Below, in pieces: positions 2-11,372 of a stretch of 64,000 nt of DNA. This DNA is from Alphaproteobacteria bacterium. Its GTDB lineage: Bacteria > Pseudomonadota > Alphaproteobacteria > UBA6615. The DNA lies in assembly GCA_039980135.1 (NCBI GenBank), contig JBDXCV010000011.1, positions 1 through 64,000 of the forward strand, read 5' to 3'. The position numbers were made by a program, and so were the translations under genes. Under the pieces are notes generated by a model. It did not search any database, was not told where the DNA came from, and worked only from the letters and a program-made list of their open reading frames with translations. Each line of letters opens with the position of its first letter. Positions within the stretch are counted from its first letter, which is position 1.

Positions 2-3000
2 CTCGGCGCGGCGGTTTCCCTGTCGGGCACCGACATCACCTACAACCCGGCCGGATTGCTCGACAGCCTGGCCGAAGGCGAGGTCGTTACGGACAGCTTC
101 ACCTACACGGTCAGCGACGAACATGGCGCGACCGACACCGCGACGGTGAGCTTCGAGGTGTCCGGTGTCAACGATGCGCCGGTGATATCTCTCCTGCCGG
201 GCAACGACGCCGGCACGGTGGTCGAGGATGATGCGGCCAACACGGTCACCGGTCAGCTGACCGGCAGTGACGTCGACAATGGCGCGGTGCTGAGCTGGTC
301 GGTCGACGGCGGCGGCGCGGGCACCTATGGCGCCCTGAGCGTGGATTCCACGGGCCAGTGGACCTATACCCTCGACAATTCCACGCCCGCGCTGGAAGAC
401 CTCGACACGGGCGAGACGGCGACCGAGACCTTCGATGTCACGGTGACCGACGAGCATGGCGCCACCGACACCCAGACGGTCACGGTCACCATCGACGGCA
501 ACACGGACAACGTCGCGCCGATGGCCCAGGACGACGCGTTTAGCGTCGGTGAAAGCGGCCTGCTGGTCGATGACCTTCTGGCGAATGACAGTGATGCGGA
601 TCCTTCCGACGTCCTGACAATCACGTCTGCGAACGGCATTGCACCGAACACGGCGTTTACCCTGACGTCGACGGGTGGTCGCGATGGTATGGCGATCGTG
701 GCACCGAATGGCGCACTGAATGTGGCCTTCGATACGGCTGGCGGGTTCGAGGATTTGGCCGCGGGCGAAACAGACACGGTCGCGTTTGATTACACGATTA
801 CGGATGGCAACGGTGCATTCGATACCGCCACGGCGACCATCACGATCCAAGGCGAGAACGATGCGCCGGTGATCGACGCGGGGGCATCGGATCTGTCCTC
901 GAGCCTGCAAGTCGGCTTCTCCTTCTCCGAGATGCTGGATGCGCACGGGATGCTGGACCACTTCACGGCACCGGTGCGTTCGGCGTCGGTGATCGATGTC
1001 GGCGGCACGGATGTGCTGGCCATCGGCACGGGCCTGACCCGCCACGAGATGATCGATATCCCGCTTTGGGGTGCGGGGGATCTGGATCCGAACACCGTTG
1101 TCGATATCAGTATCGATGCAGTGGTGCAGCGCGACGGCAGCGATCAGGACATCATGTTCGGCGTGCGGGATGCAGATTCTTATGTCGGTTTCTGGAGCAC
1201 GAACGGCTTCACCGGCGGGATATTCGCAGATTCCTTTGCAGGCAGCGGACCTTTCGGGGTCGCACATCCCGAGAACCCGCCAATTACCGACCGTACCGTC
1301 CTGTCGGGTCCCCAGCTGGACGATTTCACTCTCGATATCCAACTAGACGGTGCGTCGGATCAGTTGACCATAGCGGGTGTTGCAAGCGGCGATCTTGGCG
1401 ACTGGGTCAGCACCGACGGGGCGGTGTCGATCGTGGTCGGGGGCGGCGCAGGTGCATCGTACTACCGGGTGGAGAGTCTCGACTATGCGGTCGATGTGCA
1501 GCGCCTGAACGACACCGGTTCGATTGTGTTTGACGATGTGGATATTGGCGACACGCACAGTGCGTCGATCACGGGTGTGAACCTGACCGGGAACACCAAC
1601 GGCATCACGAACGCGACCTTCGAGGGTTTCCTCGGCCTGGCGACGACATCGGCCAACGGGGCCGGATCGCCGGGTTCCATTGACTGGACCTTCTCGGCCG
1701 ACGACGGTCTGTTCGAGCACCTGGCCGAAGGTGAGACGCTGGAAATCGCCTACGACGTTACGGTCGATGACGGCAACGGTGGCACTGATTCCGAGACCAT
1801 CACGGTTATCATCAACGGCACGAATGAGGGCCCGGTTGCGAATGCGGATGCCGCGACGATCGGTGAAAGCGGCTTTGTGACCCTCGATCTGCTTGGGAAC
1901 GACACGGACGTGGATGGCGATGCGCTGACCATCGTCGATGTGGATGGTCAGGCGCCCTCGACGGCCTTCTCGGTCACCTCGGCGGGTGGTCGCGCGGGCC
2001 AGGCGATCTTCGAGACGACGGGTGCGCTGAACTTCGCATTCGATACGGCGGGCGGCTTCGAGGACCTGGCGGTCGGCGAGACGGACACGATCACGCTCGA
2101 CTACACGATCTCGGACGGCAATGGCGGGACGGATACCTCGACGGTGACGGTGACGGTCAACGGCGAGAACGACGCGCCGGTGATCACCCCCATCGATACG
2201 GCGGTCAGCCTGTCCAACGGCAGCTTCGAGACAGCTCTGAACGGGGTGACAGACTGGAGCGTGACTTTCGGGGACCTCGATCGGGTCGGGACCTCTGTCT
2301 GGGATCCGTCCGACGGCTCCTTCAGCCTCGACCTGAACGGCTTCAACCCGGCGGGAATTTCGCAATCCTTCGCCACGGAAGCCGGCGTGACCTACACCGT
2401 CACCTTCGACATGGCAGGGAACCCCGGCCAGCAGACCGTCAAGGATCTGCGGGTGTCGGCGGATGGCACGAGCCAGGACTACAGCTTCGACAACGCGGCC
2501 GATGGCGGCACGTCGAACACCAACATGAACTGGACGGAGAAGAGCTTTACGTTCGTGGCCGTTGATGACGATACGCTCCTGGACTTCTCCAGCCTCGTGC
2601 CGTCCGGCGCCTGGGGACCGACCCTCGATAATGTTCGGGTGACCCGCGACGGGTACTTCGTGCAGGAAGACGGGACCCTCAGTGTGTCCGGCGATTTTGA
2701 TGCCACGGATGTGGACAATGTTGCGCCGCTGACCTGGTCCGTCGCCGGCGGCGGTGCGGGCACCTACGGGGACCTGTCGATCGATGCCAACGGCAGCTGG
2801 AGCTACGATTTGCGCAACGGCGATGCGAATGTGCAGGCGCTGGCCGAGGGAGAGTCCCATGACGAGGTATTCACTGTCGTCGTGACCGATGAGCATGGCG
2901 CGACGGACACGGAGAACGTGACGGTGTCGGTGGCCGGTGCCAACGACGCGCCGGTTGCGGATGATGATCTATCGTTCTCATTCGGTAGCGGTTCGAAGAC

Positions 3001-3718
3001 GGTCAACGTGCTCTCCAATGACGTCGACATCGATGGGGATACCCTCTCGATTACCGGTTTCTCGGGTGCACAGAATGGCAGCGTTGTTGATCTCGGAGGC
3101 GGGAACTTCCAATACACGCCGGATTCAGGCTTCTCGGGGCCGGATGCCTTTGGCTATGCCATCGCCGATGGAAACGGCGGCACGGCAACCGGGTATGCGG
3201 GGGTCTATTCCAACCTGGCTGGCGGGATCGTCTCGATTTCGGGTGGCGACTTCAATGACAATATGGGCGGCGGATCCAGTGGTGATATTCTTTATGCCGC
3301 CGGCGGAAACGACTCGCTCGATGGCGGCGATGGCGACGATCTGCTCATGGGCGGCCTCGGCAATGACACCCTATTGGGTGGCCGACACGAGGATGTGCTG
3401 CTCGGCGGCGCCGGCGATGACACCCTGAACGGCGGCAGCCACGAAGATTTCCTGGCGGGCGGGGATGGCGATGATTTGTTCGTGTTCGCGAACGATGAGA
3501 GCGAGGATGATGGCGACATCATTGGCGACTTCGAAGCGGGAGCCGGCACCGAAGACCGGATCGATGTGTCTGCCTTCGGGTTCACCGATCTCGCGGATCT
3601 GCTGGCGTCAACGACGGATGTGGGTGCGGATACCGTGATCGACCTCGACACCGATGACAGCCTGACGCTGATCGGTGTACAGATGGCCGATCTGCACGAG
3701 GATGACTTCATCCTGTAG
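2..3718 (+). CDS. Partial large RTX/VCBS-repeat secreted protein (3' part)
   Basis: The reading frame is open to the left edge, so the N-terminus lies outside the window; 1238 residues are visible. They form tandem beta-sandwich modules of the VCBS/cadherin-like type, with repeated NDAPVI linkers and DEHGATDT and DGNGGTDT strands. A choice-of-anchor-like module sits near nt 2200-2650 (NGSFE start, LDNVRV end). Close to the C-terminus is a block of glycine/aspartate RTX nonapeptides, followed by a short tail ending DDFIL. Family knowledge: RTX proteins with such tails leave the cell by type I secretion and fold on calcium, and VCBS proteins often act in adhesion or biofilm. No transporter genes are visible here. 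The specific ligand or role cannot be told. Confidence 0.85.
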   Translation, partial: LGAAVSLSGTDITYNPAGLLDSLAEGEVVTDSFTYTVSDEHGATDTATVSFEVSGVNDAPVISLLPGNDAGTVVEDDAANTVTGQLTGSDVDNGAVLSWSVDGGGAGTYGALSVDSTGQWTYTLDNSTPALEDLDTGETATETFDVTVTDEHGATDTQTVTVTIDGNTDNVAPMAQDDAFSVGESGLLVDDLLANDSDADPSDVLTITSANGIAPNTAFTLTSTGGRDGMAIVAPNGALNVAFDTAGGFEDLAAGETDTVAFDYTITDGNGAFDTATATITIQGENDAPVIDAGASDLSSSLQVGFSFSEMLDAHGMLDHFTAPVRSASVIDVGGTDVLAIGTGLTRHEMIDIPLWGAGDLDPNTVVDISIDAVVQRDGSDQDIMFGVRDADSYVGFWSTNGFTGGIFADSFAGSGPFGVAHPENPPITDRTVLSGPQLDDFTLDIQLDGASDQLTIAGVASGDLGDWVSTDGAVSIVVGGGAGASYYRVESLDYAVDVQRLNDTGSIVFDDVDIGDTHSASITGVNLTGNTNGITNATFEGFLGLATTSANGAGSPGSIDWTFSADDGLFEHLAEGETLEIAYDVTVDDGNGGTDSETITVIINGTNEGPVANADAATIGESGFVTLDLLGNDTDVDGDALTIVDVDGQAPSTAFSVTSAGGRAGQAIFETTGALNFAFDTAGGFEDLAVGETDTITLDYTISDGNGGTDTSTVTVTVNGENDAPVITPIDTAVSLSNGSFETALNGVTDWSVTFGDLDRVGTSVWDPSDGSFSLDLNGFNPAGISQSFATEAGVTYTVTFDMAGNPGQQTVKDLRVSADGTSQDYSFDNAADGGTSNTNMNWTEKSFTFVAVDDDTLLDFSSLVPSGAWGPTLDNVRVTRDGYFVQEDGTLSVSGDFDATDVDNVAPLTWSVAGGGAGTYGDLSIDANGSWSYDLRNGDANVQALAEGESHDEVFTVVVTDEHGATDTENVTVSVAGANDAPVADDDLSFSFGSGSKTVNVLSNDVDIDGDTLSITGFSGAQNGSVVDLGGGNFQYTPDSGFSGPDAFGYAIADGNGGTATGYAGVYSNLAGGIVSISGGDFNDNMGGGSSGDILYAAGGNDSLDGGDGDDLLMGGLGNDTLLGGRHEDVLLGGAGDDTLNGGSHEDFLAGGDGDDLFVFANDESEDDGDIIGDFEAGAGTEDRIDVSAFGFTDLADLLASTTDVGADTVIDLDTDDSLTLIGVQMADLHEDDFIL
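3302..3472 (+). repeat. RTX nonapeptide repeat block
   Basis: In-frame array coding for repeated GGxGxDxLxGG units (for example GGDGDDLLMGG, GGLGNDTLLGG, GGAGDDTLNGG). These are calcium-binding parallel beta-roll repeats at the C-terminal end of the secreted protein. Two units have RHED/SHED in place of the canonical GND/GDD, so they are slightly degenerate. Confidence 0.85.
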
Positions 3719-3750
3719 AGTGGTACGCTGCTCTTCACGGTCATCTCGCA

Positions 3751-3775
3751 GGTTCGAGTCCCGGCGGGTCCGCCA
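3751..3775 (+). other. tRNA 3'-end-like remnant (T-arm, acceptor, CCA)
   Basis: A stretch reading GGTTCGAGTCC, then a seven-base acceptor-like segment CGGGTCC, a G discriminator and CCA, which is the layout of a tRNA 3' end. Upstream bases (TTCACGG) also resemble an anticodon-loop region. A complete tRNA is not present: no matching 5' acceptor strand (GGACCCG) lies 70-90 nt upstream, where the RTX gene ends, and the T-stem pairs at only three of five positions. Immediately downstream is a terminator-like hairpin, as is common after tRNA genes. I read it as a fragment left by recombination at a tRNA 3' end, perhaps an attachment site. Chance resemblance is possible. Confidence 0.35.
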
Positions 3776-3779
3776 TATT

Positions 3780-3811
3780 CTCCGCGATTTCGCGGCTTCG
3801 GAGTTTTGTTT
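3780..3811 (+). terminator. Terminator-like hairpin after the tRNA-like remnant
   Basis: Arms CTCCG (3780-3784) and CGGAG (3799-3803) enclose a smaller hairpin CCGCGA/TCGCGG and are followed by TTTTGTTT. This fits a rho-independent terminator for the upstream RTX gene or for a former tRNA. Its 3' arm also contains the GGAG that would serve as ribosome binding site for the next gene. Confidence 0.5.
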
Positions 3812-3813
3812 CC

Positions 3814-4587
3814 TTGGAATTTCTGCCTGCGGGCTTTCTTCCTGCCGATATCGATACGACGGCGGCGGTCGCGCTAATTGCCGCGACGTTCATCGGCAAC
3901 ATCATCTCGGCCGCCATGGGCATCGGCGGCGGCATCATATTGCTGGCGGTTATGGCCAACCTGATGCCTGTTGCCGCAATCATCCCGGTTCACGGGGTGG
4001 CGCAGCTGGGGGCCAACATCTTCCGGGGCGGTGTCCAGCGCGCCCATATCGACTGGCTGACCTTCATGTGGTTCGGTCTGGGCAGCATCGTCGGGGTGGC
4101 CGTGGGTGGCAGTGTTGCGGTGGCGCTGCCGGCCAACGTCCTGCGCGGTGCGCTGGGCATATTCATCATCTACACCGTCTGGGGGCCGCAGCTGAAATTC
4201 TTCGGCGAGGGTAACCTGATCTCGGTCGTTGTCGGCGCGGTCTCAAGTGTGCTGACCATGTTCTTCGGCGCGACCGGGCCCTTTGCCGCGGCGCTGCTCA
4301 GGCAACGCGGGTACACGCCACAGGGCCTGATCGGCACCCATTCCGCCTGCATGGGCGCACAGCACGCCCTCAAGATCGTCGCCTTCGGGCTTCTGGGGTT
4401 CGCATTTGCCGAGTGGTTGGGGCTTATCGCGATGCTGCTCCTGGCCTCGCTTGCCGGCACCCTGATTGGCAGTTACGCGCTCCGCCGGATGTCTGCGGAT
4501 GTGTTCTCGACCCTCGTGAAGATGGTGCTGACGATCCTGGCCGCAAACCTGCTGGCCGTGGCCGTGGGCCTCTATTCCATCACCTGA
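3814..4587 (+). CDS. TauE/SafE family membrane permease
   Basis: 257 residues, mostly hydrophobic, predicted inner-membrane protein with about seven or eight helices. The first half carries the TauE/SafE signature (glycine-rich GIGGGIILL after the first helix, then HGVAQLGANIFRG), and the family repeats this fold in the second half. Family members are thought to export sulfite, sulfoacetate or other organosulfonate-related anions; the substrate here is not defined. The start chosen is TTG, ten bases after GGAG (3800-3803), because any later ATG would remove the first helix. No obvious partner gene is adjacent. Confidence 0.75.
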   Translation: MEFLPAGFLPADIDTTAAVALIAATFIGNIISAAMGIGGGIILLAVMANLMPVAAIIPVHGVAQLGANIFRGGVQRAHIDWLTFMWFGLGSIVGVAVGGSVAVALPANVLRGALGIFIIYTVWGPQLKFFGEGNLISVVVGAVSSVLTMFFGATGPFAAALLRQRGYTPQGLIGTHSACMGAQHALKIVAFGLLGFAFAEWLGLIAMLLLASLAGTLIGSYALRRMSADVFSTLVKMVLTILAANLLAVAVGLYSIT

Positions 4588-4726
4588 TAATCGCGTTTTC
4601 GCACAGGTCTATGCACGTGCCGTCACAAGTCATTGATTGCTTGGTCACGGGTGCGTCGCTGGCCGGGGACCGGAATCGCGTGTAGTGTTCGAACTGGTCG
4701 ATTAACGGCCGGAAAGAGGGGTAATC

Positions 4727-5371
4727 ATGAGTTTAGCAGAGAAGCTTGCGGAGATTAGTGCCGCGGGCGCCAAGCGGATGCCGGAAGAGGTGCGCGCGAC
4801 CATGGGCAAAGCGACCCAGGAGTTGCGCGAGTCCGGCATCATGGACAAAACCGTCAAGGTGGGCGACACGTTGCCGCCCTTCAGTCTTCAAAACGCCAAC
4901 GGCGAAATGGTGAATTCCGCCGACCTGCTGTCCAAGGGGGCTGTCGTTCTGACGGTGTTCCGCGGCCACTGGTGACCGTATTGCAATGCAGAGCTGTATG
5001 CTATGCGTGACATTGTAGACGGACTTGACGAAGCCGGCGCCACGTTGGTCGCCATCACCCCTCAGCTCGTCGAGCACAACAAGGCCATGACCGAAAAACA
5101 TGGTCTGAATTTCGAAATGCTTTCCGACCCGGGTAACTCCTACCTCGCGGAACTGGGCCTCAAGTTCGAGATCCCGCCCGAGGTGAAGAAGATCTACCAG
5201 GGTTTCGGGCTCGATATTCCGGGCACCAACGGCGACGACAGCTGGACGCTGCCGATGCCGGGCCGGATTGTCGTCGATTCGAGCGGCGTTGTTCGCGCGA
5301 CCGACATCGACCCGAACTATGCCTCCCGGCCGGAGCCGGAGAAGACGCTGGCGGACGTTCAGGCCCTGTAG
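4727..5371 (+). CDS. Peroxiredoxin-like selenoprotein with in-frame UGA (copy 1)
   Basis: Reads as a 214-residue AhpC/TSA-like thioredoxin-fold protein if the TGA at 4973-4975 is read as selenocysteine (residue 83). The context is FRGHW-U-PYC, a UxxC redox motif exactly where cysteine homologues have CPYC. Translation resumes in the same frame without a gap (NAELYAMRDIV) and continues to a normal C-terminus ending LADVQAL. A hairpin starting two bases after the TGA fits a bacterial SECIS element. Family knowledge: such Prx-like proteins reduce peroxides, with Sec as the peroxidatic residue and Cys86 likely the resolving partner. Good ribosome binding site (AGAGGGG, 5 nt before ATG). An automatic annotation would split it into an 82-residue and a roughly 122-residue fragment. 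Confidence 0.85.
4977..5007 (+). promoter_or_regulatory. Bacterial SECIS-like hairpin, copy 1
   Basis: Starting one base after the UGA codon, a stem of about 12 pairs with one bulge and one T-T mismatch closes a GAGC loop at 4991-4994. The loop begins with G, 16 bases after the UGA. A G at the start of a small apical loop at this distance is what bacterial SECIS elements show, and the GCAG/CUG core resembles the E. coli fdhF element. Such hairpins bind SelB and direct Sec insertion. Confidence 0.7.
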
Positions 5372-5401
5372 CCGAACCGACAGCTTTTCGAAGCGTAACG
5401 G

Positions 5402-5438
5402 AACCCCATCCGCGATCTGCCGCGGGTCGGGTTTTGTT
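5402..5438 (+). terminator. Rho-independent terminator after selenoprotein copy 1
   Basis: AACCC (5402-5406) pairs with GGGTT (5429-5433), followed by TTTTGTTT. It lies 30 bases after the stop codon. The equivalent element after copy 2 is better paired. Confidence 0.7.
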
Positions 5439-5639
5439 TGGGAACTGGTCGTGAATCGGTTGTTGCCCGACCTGTCGTTGATTGGAAACGCGATGGATCA
5501 GAATTTGGATGCTGCGGGCGCTCACTGGTTCGGTCGTCACAAGTCATTGATTGGCCGGTCACGGGCCGTTGCTGGCTGGACCCTGTGATTGCGTGTAGGG
5601 TTCTTGTCGGTCGATTAACGGCCGGAAAGAGGGGTAATC

Positions 5640-6284
5640 ATGAGTTTAGCAGAGAAGCTTGCGGAGATTAGCGCCGCGGGCGCCAAGCGTATTCCCGCGG
5701 AGAAGCTAGCCATCCTTAGCGCCGCGACGAAGGCACAACGCGAATCAGGGGTTCTGGATCACACGATCAAGGTCGGCGACAAGCTGCCGCCCTTCAGTCT
5801 CGAGAACGCCGACGGAGCCATGATCAACTCCCTCGACCTTCTGTCCAGGGGAGCTGTCGTGTTAACGGTGTTCCGCGGCCACTGGTGACCTTATTGCGTT
5901 GCAGAGCTGTATGCTTTGCGCGATATCGTACCGGCCCTTGACGAAGCTGGCGCTTCACTGGTCGCCATCACCCCTCAGCTCGTTAAGCACAACAAGTCCA
6001 TGACCGAAAAGAACGATCTCAATTTCCACATGCTGTCCGATCCGGGCAACACTTACCTGGCGGATCTCGGTCTCAAGTTCGAACTCCAACCGGACGTCAA
6101 GGAAATCTATCAGGCAGTCGGGATCGACGTTCCAGGCACCAACGGCGACGACAGCTGGACGCTGCCGATTCCGTGTCGGATCGTCGTCGATTCGAGCGGC
6201 GTTGTCCGTGCGACAGACATCGACCCGAACTATGCCTCCCGGCCGGAGCCGGAGAAGACGCTGGCGGACGTTCAGGCGCTCTAG
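5640..6284 (+). CDS. Peroxiredoxin-like selenoprotein with in-frame UGA (copy 2)
   Basis: A paralogue of the preceding gene, also 214 residues when the TGA at 5886-5888 is read as selenocysteine 83 (FRGHW-U-PYC, then VAELYALRDIV). The first 17 residues and the C-terminal 27 are identical between copies, while residues 18-60 and the middle differ, showing that both proteins are under selection rather than decaying. That UGA, UxxC spacing and reading frame are all kept in both copies is strong evidence that UGA is decoded. No selA, selB, selC or selD gene lies in the window, so the machinery must be elsewhere. Likely a cytosolic peroxidase with thiol or glutathione-type reductants; the substrate is unknown. 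Confidence 0.85.
5890..5920 (+). promoter_or_regulatory. Bacterial SECIS-like hairpin, copy 2
   Basis: Same position relative to UGA as in copy 1. The apical hairpin TGCA-GAGC-TGTA is unchanged (loop 5904-5907, G first, 16 bases after UGA) and two G-C pairs below a bulge are kept. The lower stem is weaker because of three substitutions. The apical part being the best conserved matches what SelB recognises. Confidence 0.6.
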
Positions 6285-6315: not shown

Positions 6316-6353
6316 AACCCCATCCGCGATCTGCCCCGGGTGGGGTTTTGTTT
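6316..6353 (+). terminator. Rho-independent terminator after selenoprotein copy 2
   Basis: AACCCCA (6316-6322) pairs perfectly with TGGGGTT (6341-6347) and runs into TTTTGTTT. It ends the duplicated block. Confidence 0.8.
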
Positions 6354-9923: not shown

Positions 9924-11372
9924 CTATTCCAGCCGGTTGAGGCCGTCGAAGGCGGCGGTCTTGTAGCATTCGGCCAGGGTCGGATAGTTGAAGACCGTGT
10001 CCACGAAATAGTCGAGCGTGCCGCTATGGGCCATCACCGCCTGTCCGATATGGATGAGCTCGGCGGCGCCTTCGCCCAGGATACTGACCCCGAGAATCTC
10101 CCGGGTTTCGACGTGAAACAGGAGCTTCAGCATGCCCGTGGCGTCCCCGATGATCTGGCCGCGGGAGATTTCCTTGTAGAACGCCTTGCCGACTTCGTAG
10201 GGGACGCCATTGGCGGTGAGTTCCTCTTCATTGGCGCCGACCACCGAGATTTCCGGGATCGTGTAGATGCCGTAGGGGAACAGCTGGGCGACACCCGACA
10301 CCGACGCGTCGAACGCGTGGCAGGCGGCGAGGCGGCCCTGTTCCATGGAGGTCGAGGCGAGGCTCGGGAAGCCGATGACGTCTCCTGCCGCGTAGATGTT
10401 GGGCACATTGGTCCGGTAATTCGCATCGACCGTCAGCCGGCCGCGTTCGTCGGCATCGAGGCCGGCGGCGTCGAGATTGAGTTCTCCGGTGGCACCCGTG
10501 CGGCCGACACTGTACAGCGCCTTGGACGCAACGACCTGTTTGCCGCTCTCCAGCACCACACGCACATGGGGGCCGCGCTTGCCCGCTTCCACGGCTATGG
10601 ATTCCACACCTTCACCCAGGCGCAGTGTCACCCGGTTCTGGCGCATGAGATAGGCCAGCGCATCGGTGATCTCGCCGTCGACGAAGTCGAGCAGGCGGGG
10701 TCGCTTGTCGATCAGGGTCACGCGGACGCCCAGGGTGGCAAAAATGGTCGCGTATTCGAGGCCGATGACCCCGGCACCGATCACCACCAGCGTGCGCGGC
10801 AGTTCCTCGAGGTCGAGAATGTCGTCGCTGGTGAATACGGATTGCCCGTCGAAGGGAATATCGGGCGATCTGGTCGTCTCGGTCCCCACCGCGATGACAA
10901 TCCTGTCAGCTGTGACCGCGCGCTGGCCGCGGCCATCGAAATAGTCGAGGCGGACCGTGTTGGCGTCGGCGAATGTGGCCGTTGCCTCGATCACGACAAC
11001 GCCGTTGCGGCGCAGCTGGTGATGGGTGACGTCGATCTCGTTGCGGATCACATGATCAGCGCGGAACAGGAGATCCGACATGGCGATGTCGTGCTTCACC
11101 ACATAGGACGCGCCGTACACGTTGCGTTCGCGGAAACCCGATAGGTGTAGAGCCGCCTCGCGCAGGGTCTTCGACGGGATGGTGCCGGTGTTGATGCATA
11201 CCCCACCGACGACGGTACGCCGCTCGATGATGGCGGCCTTTTTGCCGAGCTTTGCGGCCTGGATTGCGGCGCGCTGGCCGGCAGGCCCCGACCCCATGAC
11301 AATCAGGTCGAAGTCATGGCCATCGCCGTTCGTGGCCTGGCCGGCGATGTCCGGTATGGTCTGGTCAAGCAT
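9924..11372 (-). CDS. sthA: Soluble pyridine nucleotide transhydrogenase
   Basis: 482 residues of the FAD-dependent pyridine nucleotide-disulfide oxidoreductase fold: FAD-binding GSGPAG near 27-32, NAD-binding GAGVIGLEYA in the middle, and the C-terminal dimerisation domain. Lipoamide dehydrogenases have CxxxxC; here the segment is GVCINTGTIPSK, with Thr64 at the second cysteine. E. coli SthA also keeps only one cysteine and has GTIPSK, which favours the transhydrogenase that balances NADPH and NADH in the cytosol. The start at 11372 follows GGGGA; ATGs at 11390 and 11426 are alternatives in the same frame. Confidence 0.85.
   Translation of the reverse strand: MLDQTIPDIAGQATNGDGHDFDLIVMGSGPAGQRAAIQAAKLGKKAAIIERRTVVGGVCINTGTIPSKTLREAALHLSGFRERNVYGASYVVKHDIAMSDLLFRADHVIRNEIDVTHHQLRRNGVVVIEATATFADANTVRLDYFDGRGQRAVTADRIVIAVGTETTRSPDIPFDGQSVFTSDDILDLEELPRTLVVIGAGVIGLEYATIFATLGVRVTLIDKRPRLLDFVDGEITDALAYLMRQNRVTLRLGEGVESIAVEAGKRGPHVRVVLESGKQVVASKALYSVGRTGATGELNLDAAGLDADERGRLTVDANYRTNVPNIYAAGDVIGFPSLASTSMEQGRLAACHAFDASVSGVAQLFPYGIYTIPEISVVGANEEELTANGVPYEVGKAFYKEISRGQIIGDATGMLKLLFHVETREILGVSILGEGAAELIHIGQAVMAHSGTLDYFVDTVFNYPTLAECYKTAAFDGLNRLE

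Follow-up and report, generated by a model that had tools for sequence, protein, structure and literature searches.

Layout of the gene pair

The window, by which we mean the whole stretch of DNA analysed (64 000 nucleotides, positions 1–64 000 of contig C11 in the 3.76 Mb assembly G000), carries two adjacent genes with exactly one internal TGA each, at codon 83 in the motif VFRGHW*PYC (Table 1). Both ORFs read through to the full 214 codons, in agreement with an earlier note on this DNA, which had placed them at these positions with TGA at codon 83 in FRGHW-U-PYC. The copies share 79% protein identity and 81.6% DNA identity; of the 119 DNA differences, 70 fall at third codon positions. No signal peptide is apparent in either. 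Both copies are flanked by an upstream block and a terminator-like hairpin of their own. The block, GTCACAAGTCATTGATT-N4-GGTCACG, occurs four times in seven congeneric genomes, each time preceding one of these genes; considered as a possible regulon motif, it had no other site in those seven genomes. The nearest named relatives are the Rhodospirillaceae MAGs SI072_bin63 and SI074_bin10, from which the source appears to be a marine alphaproteobacterium. Elsewhere in the window, a large ORF (56–3718) encodes repeated VCBS/cadherin-like domains and ends, as read from its translation, in glycine-rich repeats of the calcium-binding type; it is probably a secreted RTX-type surface protein.

Table 1. 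Features of the gene pair (window coordinates)
Feature	Position	Strand	Remarks
Upstream block GTCACAAGTCATTGATT-N4-GGTCACG before copy 1, probable promoter/operator or leader	4622..4649	+	Conserved motif
AGAGGGG, probable ribosome-binding site of copy 1	4715..4721	+	Read from sequence
Copy 1, Prx-like UxxC selenoprotein gene (predicted)	4727..5371	+	214 sense codons including Sec83, stop TAG; AhpC-TSA E 4e-23
In-frame UGA (predicted Sec), codon 83 of copy 1	4973..4975	+	Kept in 23 aligned genes
SECIS-like hairpin of copy 1, GCAGAGC-UGUAU-GCUAUGC	4988..5006	+	19 nt between UGA and apical loop; synonymous constraint
Terminator-like hairpin and T-run 3' of copy 1	5408..5427	+	Consensus scan only
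The same GTCACAAGTCATTGATT-N4-GGTCACG block before copy 2	5536..5563	+	Conserved motif
AGAGGGG, probable ribosome-binding site of copy 2	5628..5634	+	Read from sequence
Copy 2, fast-evolving tandem paralogue	5640..6284	+	214 sense codons including Sec83 (predicted), stop TAG
In-frame UGA (predicted Sec), codon 83 of copy 2	5886..5888	+	Read from sequence
SECIS-like hairpin of copy 2, GCAGAGC-UGUAU-GCUUUGC	5901..5919	+	7 contiguous pairs; fold z −3.0
Terminator-like hairpin and T-run 3' of copy 2	6333..6346	+	Consensus scan only

Reading of the in-frame UGA codon

Orthologues with TGA at the identical codon are present in nine other relatives of a 60-relative set, from the same genus (G002 and G006), the same family (G011, G013, which has two, G014, G021 and G022) and the same class (G030 and G050), and in a further eleven Alphaproteobacteria (G079, G089, G090, G103, G114, G145, G209, G217, G248, G302 and G378). 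This recurrence excludes chance or sequencing error. In one congener the orthologue of copy 1 is 94% identical, with the same TGA and the same synteny. Cysteine homologues carry CPYC or CPFC where the TGA form has UPYC, which bears out the view that CPYC is normal in the family; one such homologue, more distant from the pair, lies in the same genome (G000:C9:636210). In a tree of 47 proteins all 23 UGA forms constitute one clade (support 99/96), which fits a single Cys/Sec change in this sample, and the UGA form is found in several alphaproteobacterial families among the sampled genomes. Two homologues with an in-frame TAG were considered as candidates for UAG-encoded selenocysteine and rejected: the TAG of L100 occupies codon 78, with Cys83 normal, and the motif Cys is present in L053.

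The earlier note had argued for selenocysteine from two diverged copies keeping the same stop codon, and would have abandoned it had selB or selC been missing from the genome. The conclusion stands, but for duplicated genes this argument has little weight by itself; the case rests instead on the orthologues and on the synonymous-site constraint described below. The genome contains all of the genes for which that note had proposed a search, selA, selB, selC and selD: selB (C3:840844-842715; 467 bits, E 5e-140), an adjoining selA (L017:16713-18119; E 3e-175), a tRNA-Sec (C3:829190-829281; 71 bits against a gathering threshold of 47), confirmed by ARAGORN with anticodon tca, and selD as an Ndh-SelD fusion (TIGR03169 and TIGR00476; L017:901-3123, minus strand), a form noted in the GOS selenoproteome (PMC2398784). 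All 21 genomes with the full-length TGA form, this one included, possess selB. Within the 60-relative set it accompanies the TGA form in 10 of 10 cases, compared with 14 of 50 genomes lacking the form (Fisher p 2.6e-5, for rows that are related by descent), and it is present in 11 of 11 further class members with the form.

Downstream of the TGA, dN/dS is 0.18 between the two copies and 0.06–0.12 when copy 1 or the G002 gene is compared with single-copy orthologues in congeners; such low values indicate that the sequence beyond the TGA is protein. The congener G003 retains only a remnant at the syntenic place (L075:5339-5723), which has lost its start and middle, is frameshifted and has no TGA, reading TTT TGG in place of TGG TGA. 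No match to selB or tRNA-Sec was found in the G003 assembly. We rejected this as proof of a joint loss of gene and machinery, since the assembly, at 87% completeness, still contains another intact UGA gene, so that the sel genes may merely be absent from it.

Immediately 3' of the TGA, the 12 nearest UGA genes share the sequence CCN TAY TGY (AAT/GTT) GCA GAG CTG TAY GCT (A/T)TG, the RNA of which gives GCAGAGC-UGUAY-GCUWUGC with 19 nt from the UGA to the loop. GCA, GAG, CTG and GCT do not vary in these genes, and the synonymous sites of codons 88–90 and 92 are invariant; in neighbouring genes of the window, GCA and GCT are a minority of the Ala codons (25/178). Eight-codon windows starting at codons 85–88 form the gene-wide peak of synonymous codon identity (0.84–0.89 versus 0.50 overall). 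The 11 distant UGA genes keep the core GAGC-UGGAN-GCUC (GAGC...GCUY), with a weakly conserved lower stem. On the 3' strand of the hairpin, 22 of 23 Sec genes use GCT for the Ala at +9, compared with two of 24 Cys genes (p 4e-10, with related rows), and the hairpin signature is absent from the Cys homologues. This natural comparison of 12 near UGA genes, 11 distant ones and two dozen Cys genes thus reveals SECIS constraint at synonymous sites. As drawn, the hairpin is paired at 88%, compared with at most 51% in slid controls (related sequences, not independent). Two-sided compensatory base changes were sought across the aligned UGA genes and none was found, the pairs being invariant or varying on one side, and the fold z-scores lie between −0.45 (copy 1, not unusually stable) and −4.7. 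Because the helix is largely invariant and its stability variable, the case for the hairpin rests on the synonymous constraint and the Sec/Cys contrast. Bacterial SECIS elements are described as having a small, G-containing apical loop directly downstream of the UGA (PMC1088965), and the present hairpin follows the UGA directly with the small loop UGUAU.

With the decoding machinery, the SECIS-like hairpins, the Cys homologues and the purifying selection seen 3' of the TGA all in agreement, selenocysteine is favoured over a pseudogene or sequencing error, as the earlier note had held, and we regard Sec insertion at UGA83 of both genes as nearly certain from these comparisons. The alternatives, that an altered code or a suppressor inserts Trp or another residue, or that translation terminates to leave an 82-residue protein, have a negligible probability. 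The only positive point for a Trp reading is the TGG at the place of the TGA in the decayed G003 remnant; intact homologues have Cys and never Trp, the UGA form always occurs together with selB, conservation and selection persist beyond the codon, and ordinary TGA stops are used elsewhere, for example by the TauE gene ending at 4587. In the favoured reading, the SelB/tRNA-Sec pathway would decode UGA83 in both genes, with Sec insertion directed by the hairpin inside the coding sequence, which starts 12 nt beyond the UGA. With conventional gene calling such genes could end at codon 82, and the distribution of the family may therefore be under-reported.

Fold, active site and place among selenoproteins

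Both proteins match AhpC-TSA (PF00578) well above the cut-off of 26 bits (82.1 bits for copy 1 and 77.6 for copy 2) and also match Redoxin (PF08534), with only sub-threshold NCBIfam matches (PRK09437, ResA and the SelL-related NF040769). The AlphaFold model has a pLDDT of 96, and its top PDB matches are Bcp/PrxQ and AhpE. In a profile alignment with PrxQ structures, Cys86 takes the place of the peroxidatic Cys, residue 83 that of the Ser in PxxxSxxC and Arg79 that of the Pro in the same motif; Pro178 falls on an Arg of 2ywn that we take to be the Prx catalytic Arg and may itself be a thioredoxin-type cis-Pro. The earlier description of the pair as peroxiredoxins or peroxidases is thus borne out for the fold (PF00578; Bcp/PrxQ, AhpE) and not for the active site, in which Sec occupies the Prx Thr/Ser position and other residues replace the catalytic Pro and Arg.

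Since the Prx triad is absent and a thioredoxin-like UxxC is present, we prefer a Prx-like thiol:disulfide oxidoreductase to a dedicated selenoperoxidase and consider this role, judged from sequence and alignment, to be the probable one. The product would be a 214-residue AhpC/TSA-fold selenoprotein with the active site Sec83-Pro-Tyr-Cys86, in which the Sec83 selenolate would attack a disulfide (or peroxide) substrate, Cys86 would resolve the intermediate by forming a Sec83-Cys86 selenenylsulfide, and the enzyme would be recycled by a reductant of the thioredoxin or glutaredoxin type. Such chemistry would be that of a Prx-like oxidoreductase and not of a canonical peroxidatic-Cys peroxiredoxin. 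Selenols react quickly with peroxides, the proteins have the Prx fold and belong to PF00578, and Cys86 could act as the resolving residue, all of which would suit a true selenoperoxidase that uses Sec83 as its peroxidatic residue and has the reduction of H2O2 or organic hydroperoxides as its main task. We nevertheless find that assignment rather unlikely, as residue 83 aligns with Ser/Thr and not with the peroxidatic Cys, Arg79 and Pro178 stand where a Prx has its Pro and Arg, neither protein matches the Sec-peroxiredoxin model PrxU (NF040737) and the literature, in the family lists concerned, separates UxxC Prx-like proteins from TxxU peroxiredoxins (PMC1088965, PMC13188914).

By domain and motif, with PF00578 above gathering and UPYC at the CxxC of the Cys homologues, the pair is assigned to the known Prx-like UxxC selenoprotein family (PF00578). 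Published family lists enter this family apart from the TxxU peroxiredoxin (PMC1088965, PMC2398784, PMC13188914, PMC9312934), as 'Prx-like' in the Sargasso Sea survey of 2005 (PMC1088965) and as 'Prx-like 1' in the GOS survey of 2008 (PMC2398784). Likened by description (a published representative is WP_010940744.1), the pair has in common with that family the PF00578 domain, a UxxC Sec, a SECIS just downstream, many Cys homologues and an occurrence in marine bacteria; it differs in being a tandem pair, which the family descriptions in those sources do not include. Three other groups are comparable. The Sec-containing peroxiredoxin (TxxU; PrxU, NF040737) is likewise a selenoprotein of Prx fold, but its Sec stands at the peroxidatic position together with the Prx Pro, Thr/Ser and Arg, whereas in the pair Sec lies three residues before that position and this set of residues is not found. 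PRX_like2/AhpC-TSA_2 selenoproteins (cd02970, PF13911; UxxS in Olavius symbionts), with which we presume the eukaryotic SelU/PRXL2 proteins to belong, also carry their Sec within a thioredoxin-type motif on a Prx-like fold; the pair differs from them in having PF00578 and PF08534 as its best Pfam matches, no PF13911 and UPYC in place of UxxS. To the SelL-related redox proteins (NF040769) there is a weak profile similarity of 29.9 bits, far under the 120-bit cut-off, and the pair has no second Sec.

The GOS survey (PMC2398784) describes selenoprotein genes lying next to those of another family (Prx/SelW and further combinations). A literature search, which was not exhaustive, turned up no description of one Prx-like selenoprotein encoded by a tandem pair. 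Work on Planctomycetes, considered as a precedent for tandem selenoprotein genes, was rejected, the tandem duplications that it describes being of sulfatases. The selenoprotein family is already known, and the unusual part is the lineage-specific tandem duplication, found in this genome only among the sampled relatives.

Tandem duplication and other UGA genes

Congeners keep the gene order TauE – gene – AMP-ligase – flavin protein – SthA-like with a single gene copy. The tandem pair that the earlier note had pointed out is real, yet it is confined to this genome: sampled relatives have one copy at the same syntenic place, and the congener G003 has only the decayed remnant without TGA. Both copies fall within the genus clade of the tree (100/99), where the branch of copy 2 (0.21) is about tenfold longer than that of copy 1 (0.017); the position of copy 2 inside the genus is not settled by the tree. 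DNA identity between the copies is 94% over the first 54 bases of the coding sequence and 97% over the last 60, compared with 62% over codons 19–50, and ends so much more alike than this segment suggest gene conversion at the ends. A whole transcription unit was duplicated in tandem within this genus, leaving copy 1 as the conserved orthologue and copy 2 as a faster-evolving paralogue with ends still nearly identical to those of copy 1. The explanation as a whole, SelB-decoded UGA83, a SECIS in the coding sequence, UxxC Prx-like oxidoreductases and a tandem duplication in the genus, is in our judgement very probable, and the locus offers a well-supported example of Sec kept through tandem duplication.

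For copy 2 itself we tentatively suggest, as a possibility with less than even prospects, a recent, retained and functionally diverging selenoenzyme, the complete unit (upstream block, SECIS and terminator) having been duplicated, its catalytic core evolving faster and its ends homogenized by gene conversion. The long branch, the greater amino-acid change in codons 19–50 and the decay of the single gene in G003 could also belong to a decaying duplicate or young pseudogene whose reading frame has survived by chance or through gene conversion from copy 1. This we think improbable, since the frame is full-length, the UxxC motif and the SECIS hairpin are intact (7/7 pairs) and dN/dS against copy 1 is 0.18–0.21 on both sides of the TGA. 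Position 179 (window 6174–6176), right after the invariant Pro178, is Cys in copy 2 (IPCRIVV) and Gly in copy 1; of the two G013 paralogues, one likewise carries Cys there.

If copy 2 is indeed a diverging selenoenzyme, it would, together with a second adjacent Prx-like UGA pair in this genome, point to growth of the selenoproteome by local duplication in Alphaproteobacteria. The second pair (G000:C9:98927-99301 and 99635-100030; L078 about 3750–5200) encodes proteins with apparent signal peptides; its motifs are SLAW-U-PTC and SLSW-U-PYC, and a CCAGGCGGTCGYCTGG hairpin follows the UGA in each gene. The two genes are also found in G006, about 2.7 kb apart. Another PF00578 gene, with FYRGHW-U-PYC (G000:C3:836329-836694; L017 about 10264–10911, minus strand), sits between tRNA-Sec and selA-selB, and relatives such as G002, G006, G011 and G021 likewise have UGA-containing matches near selB.
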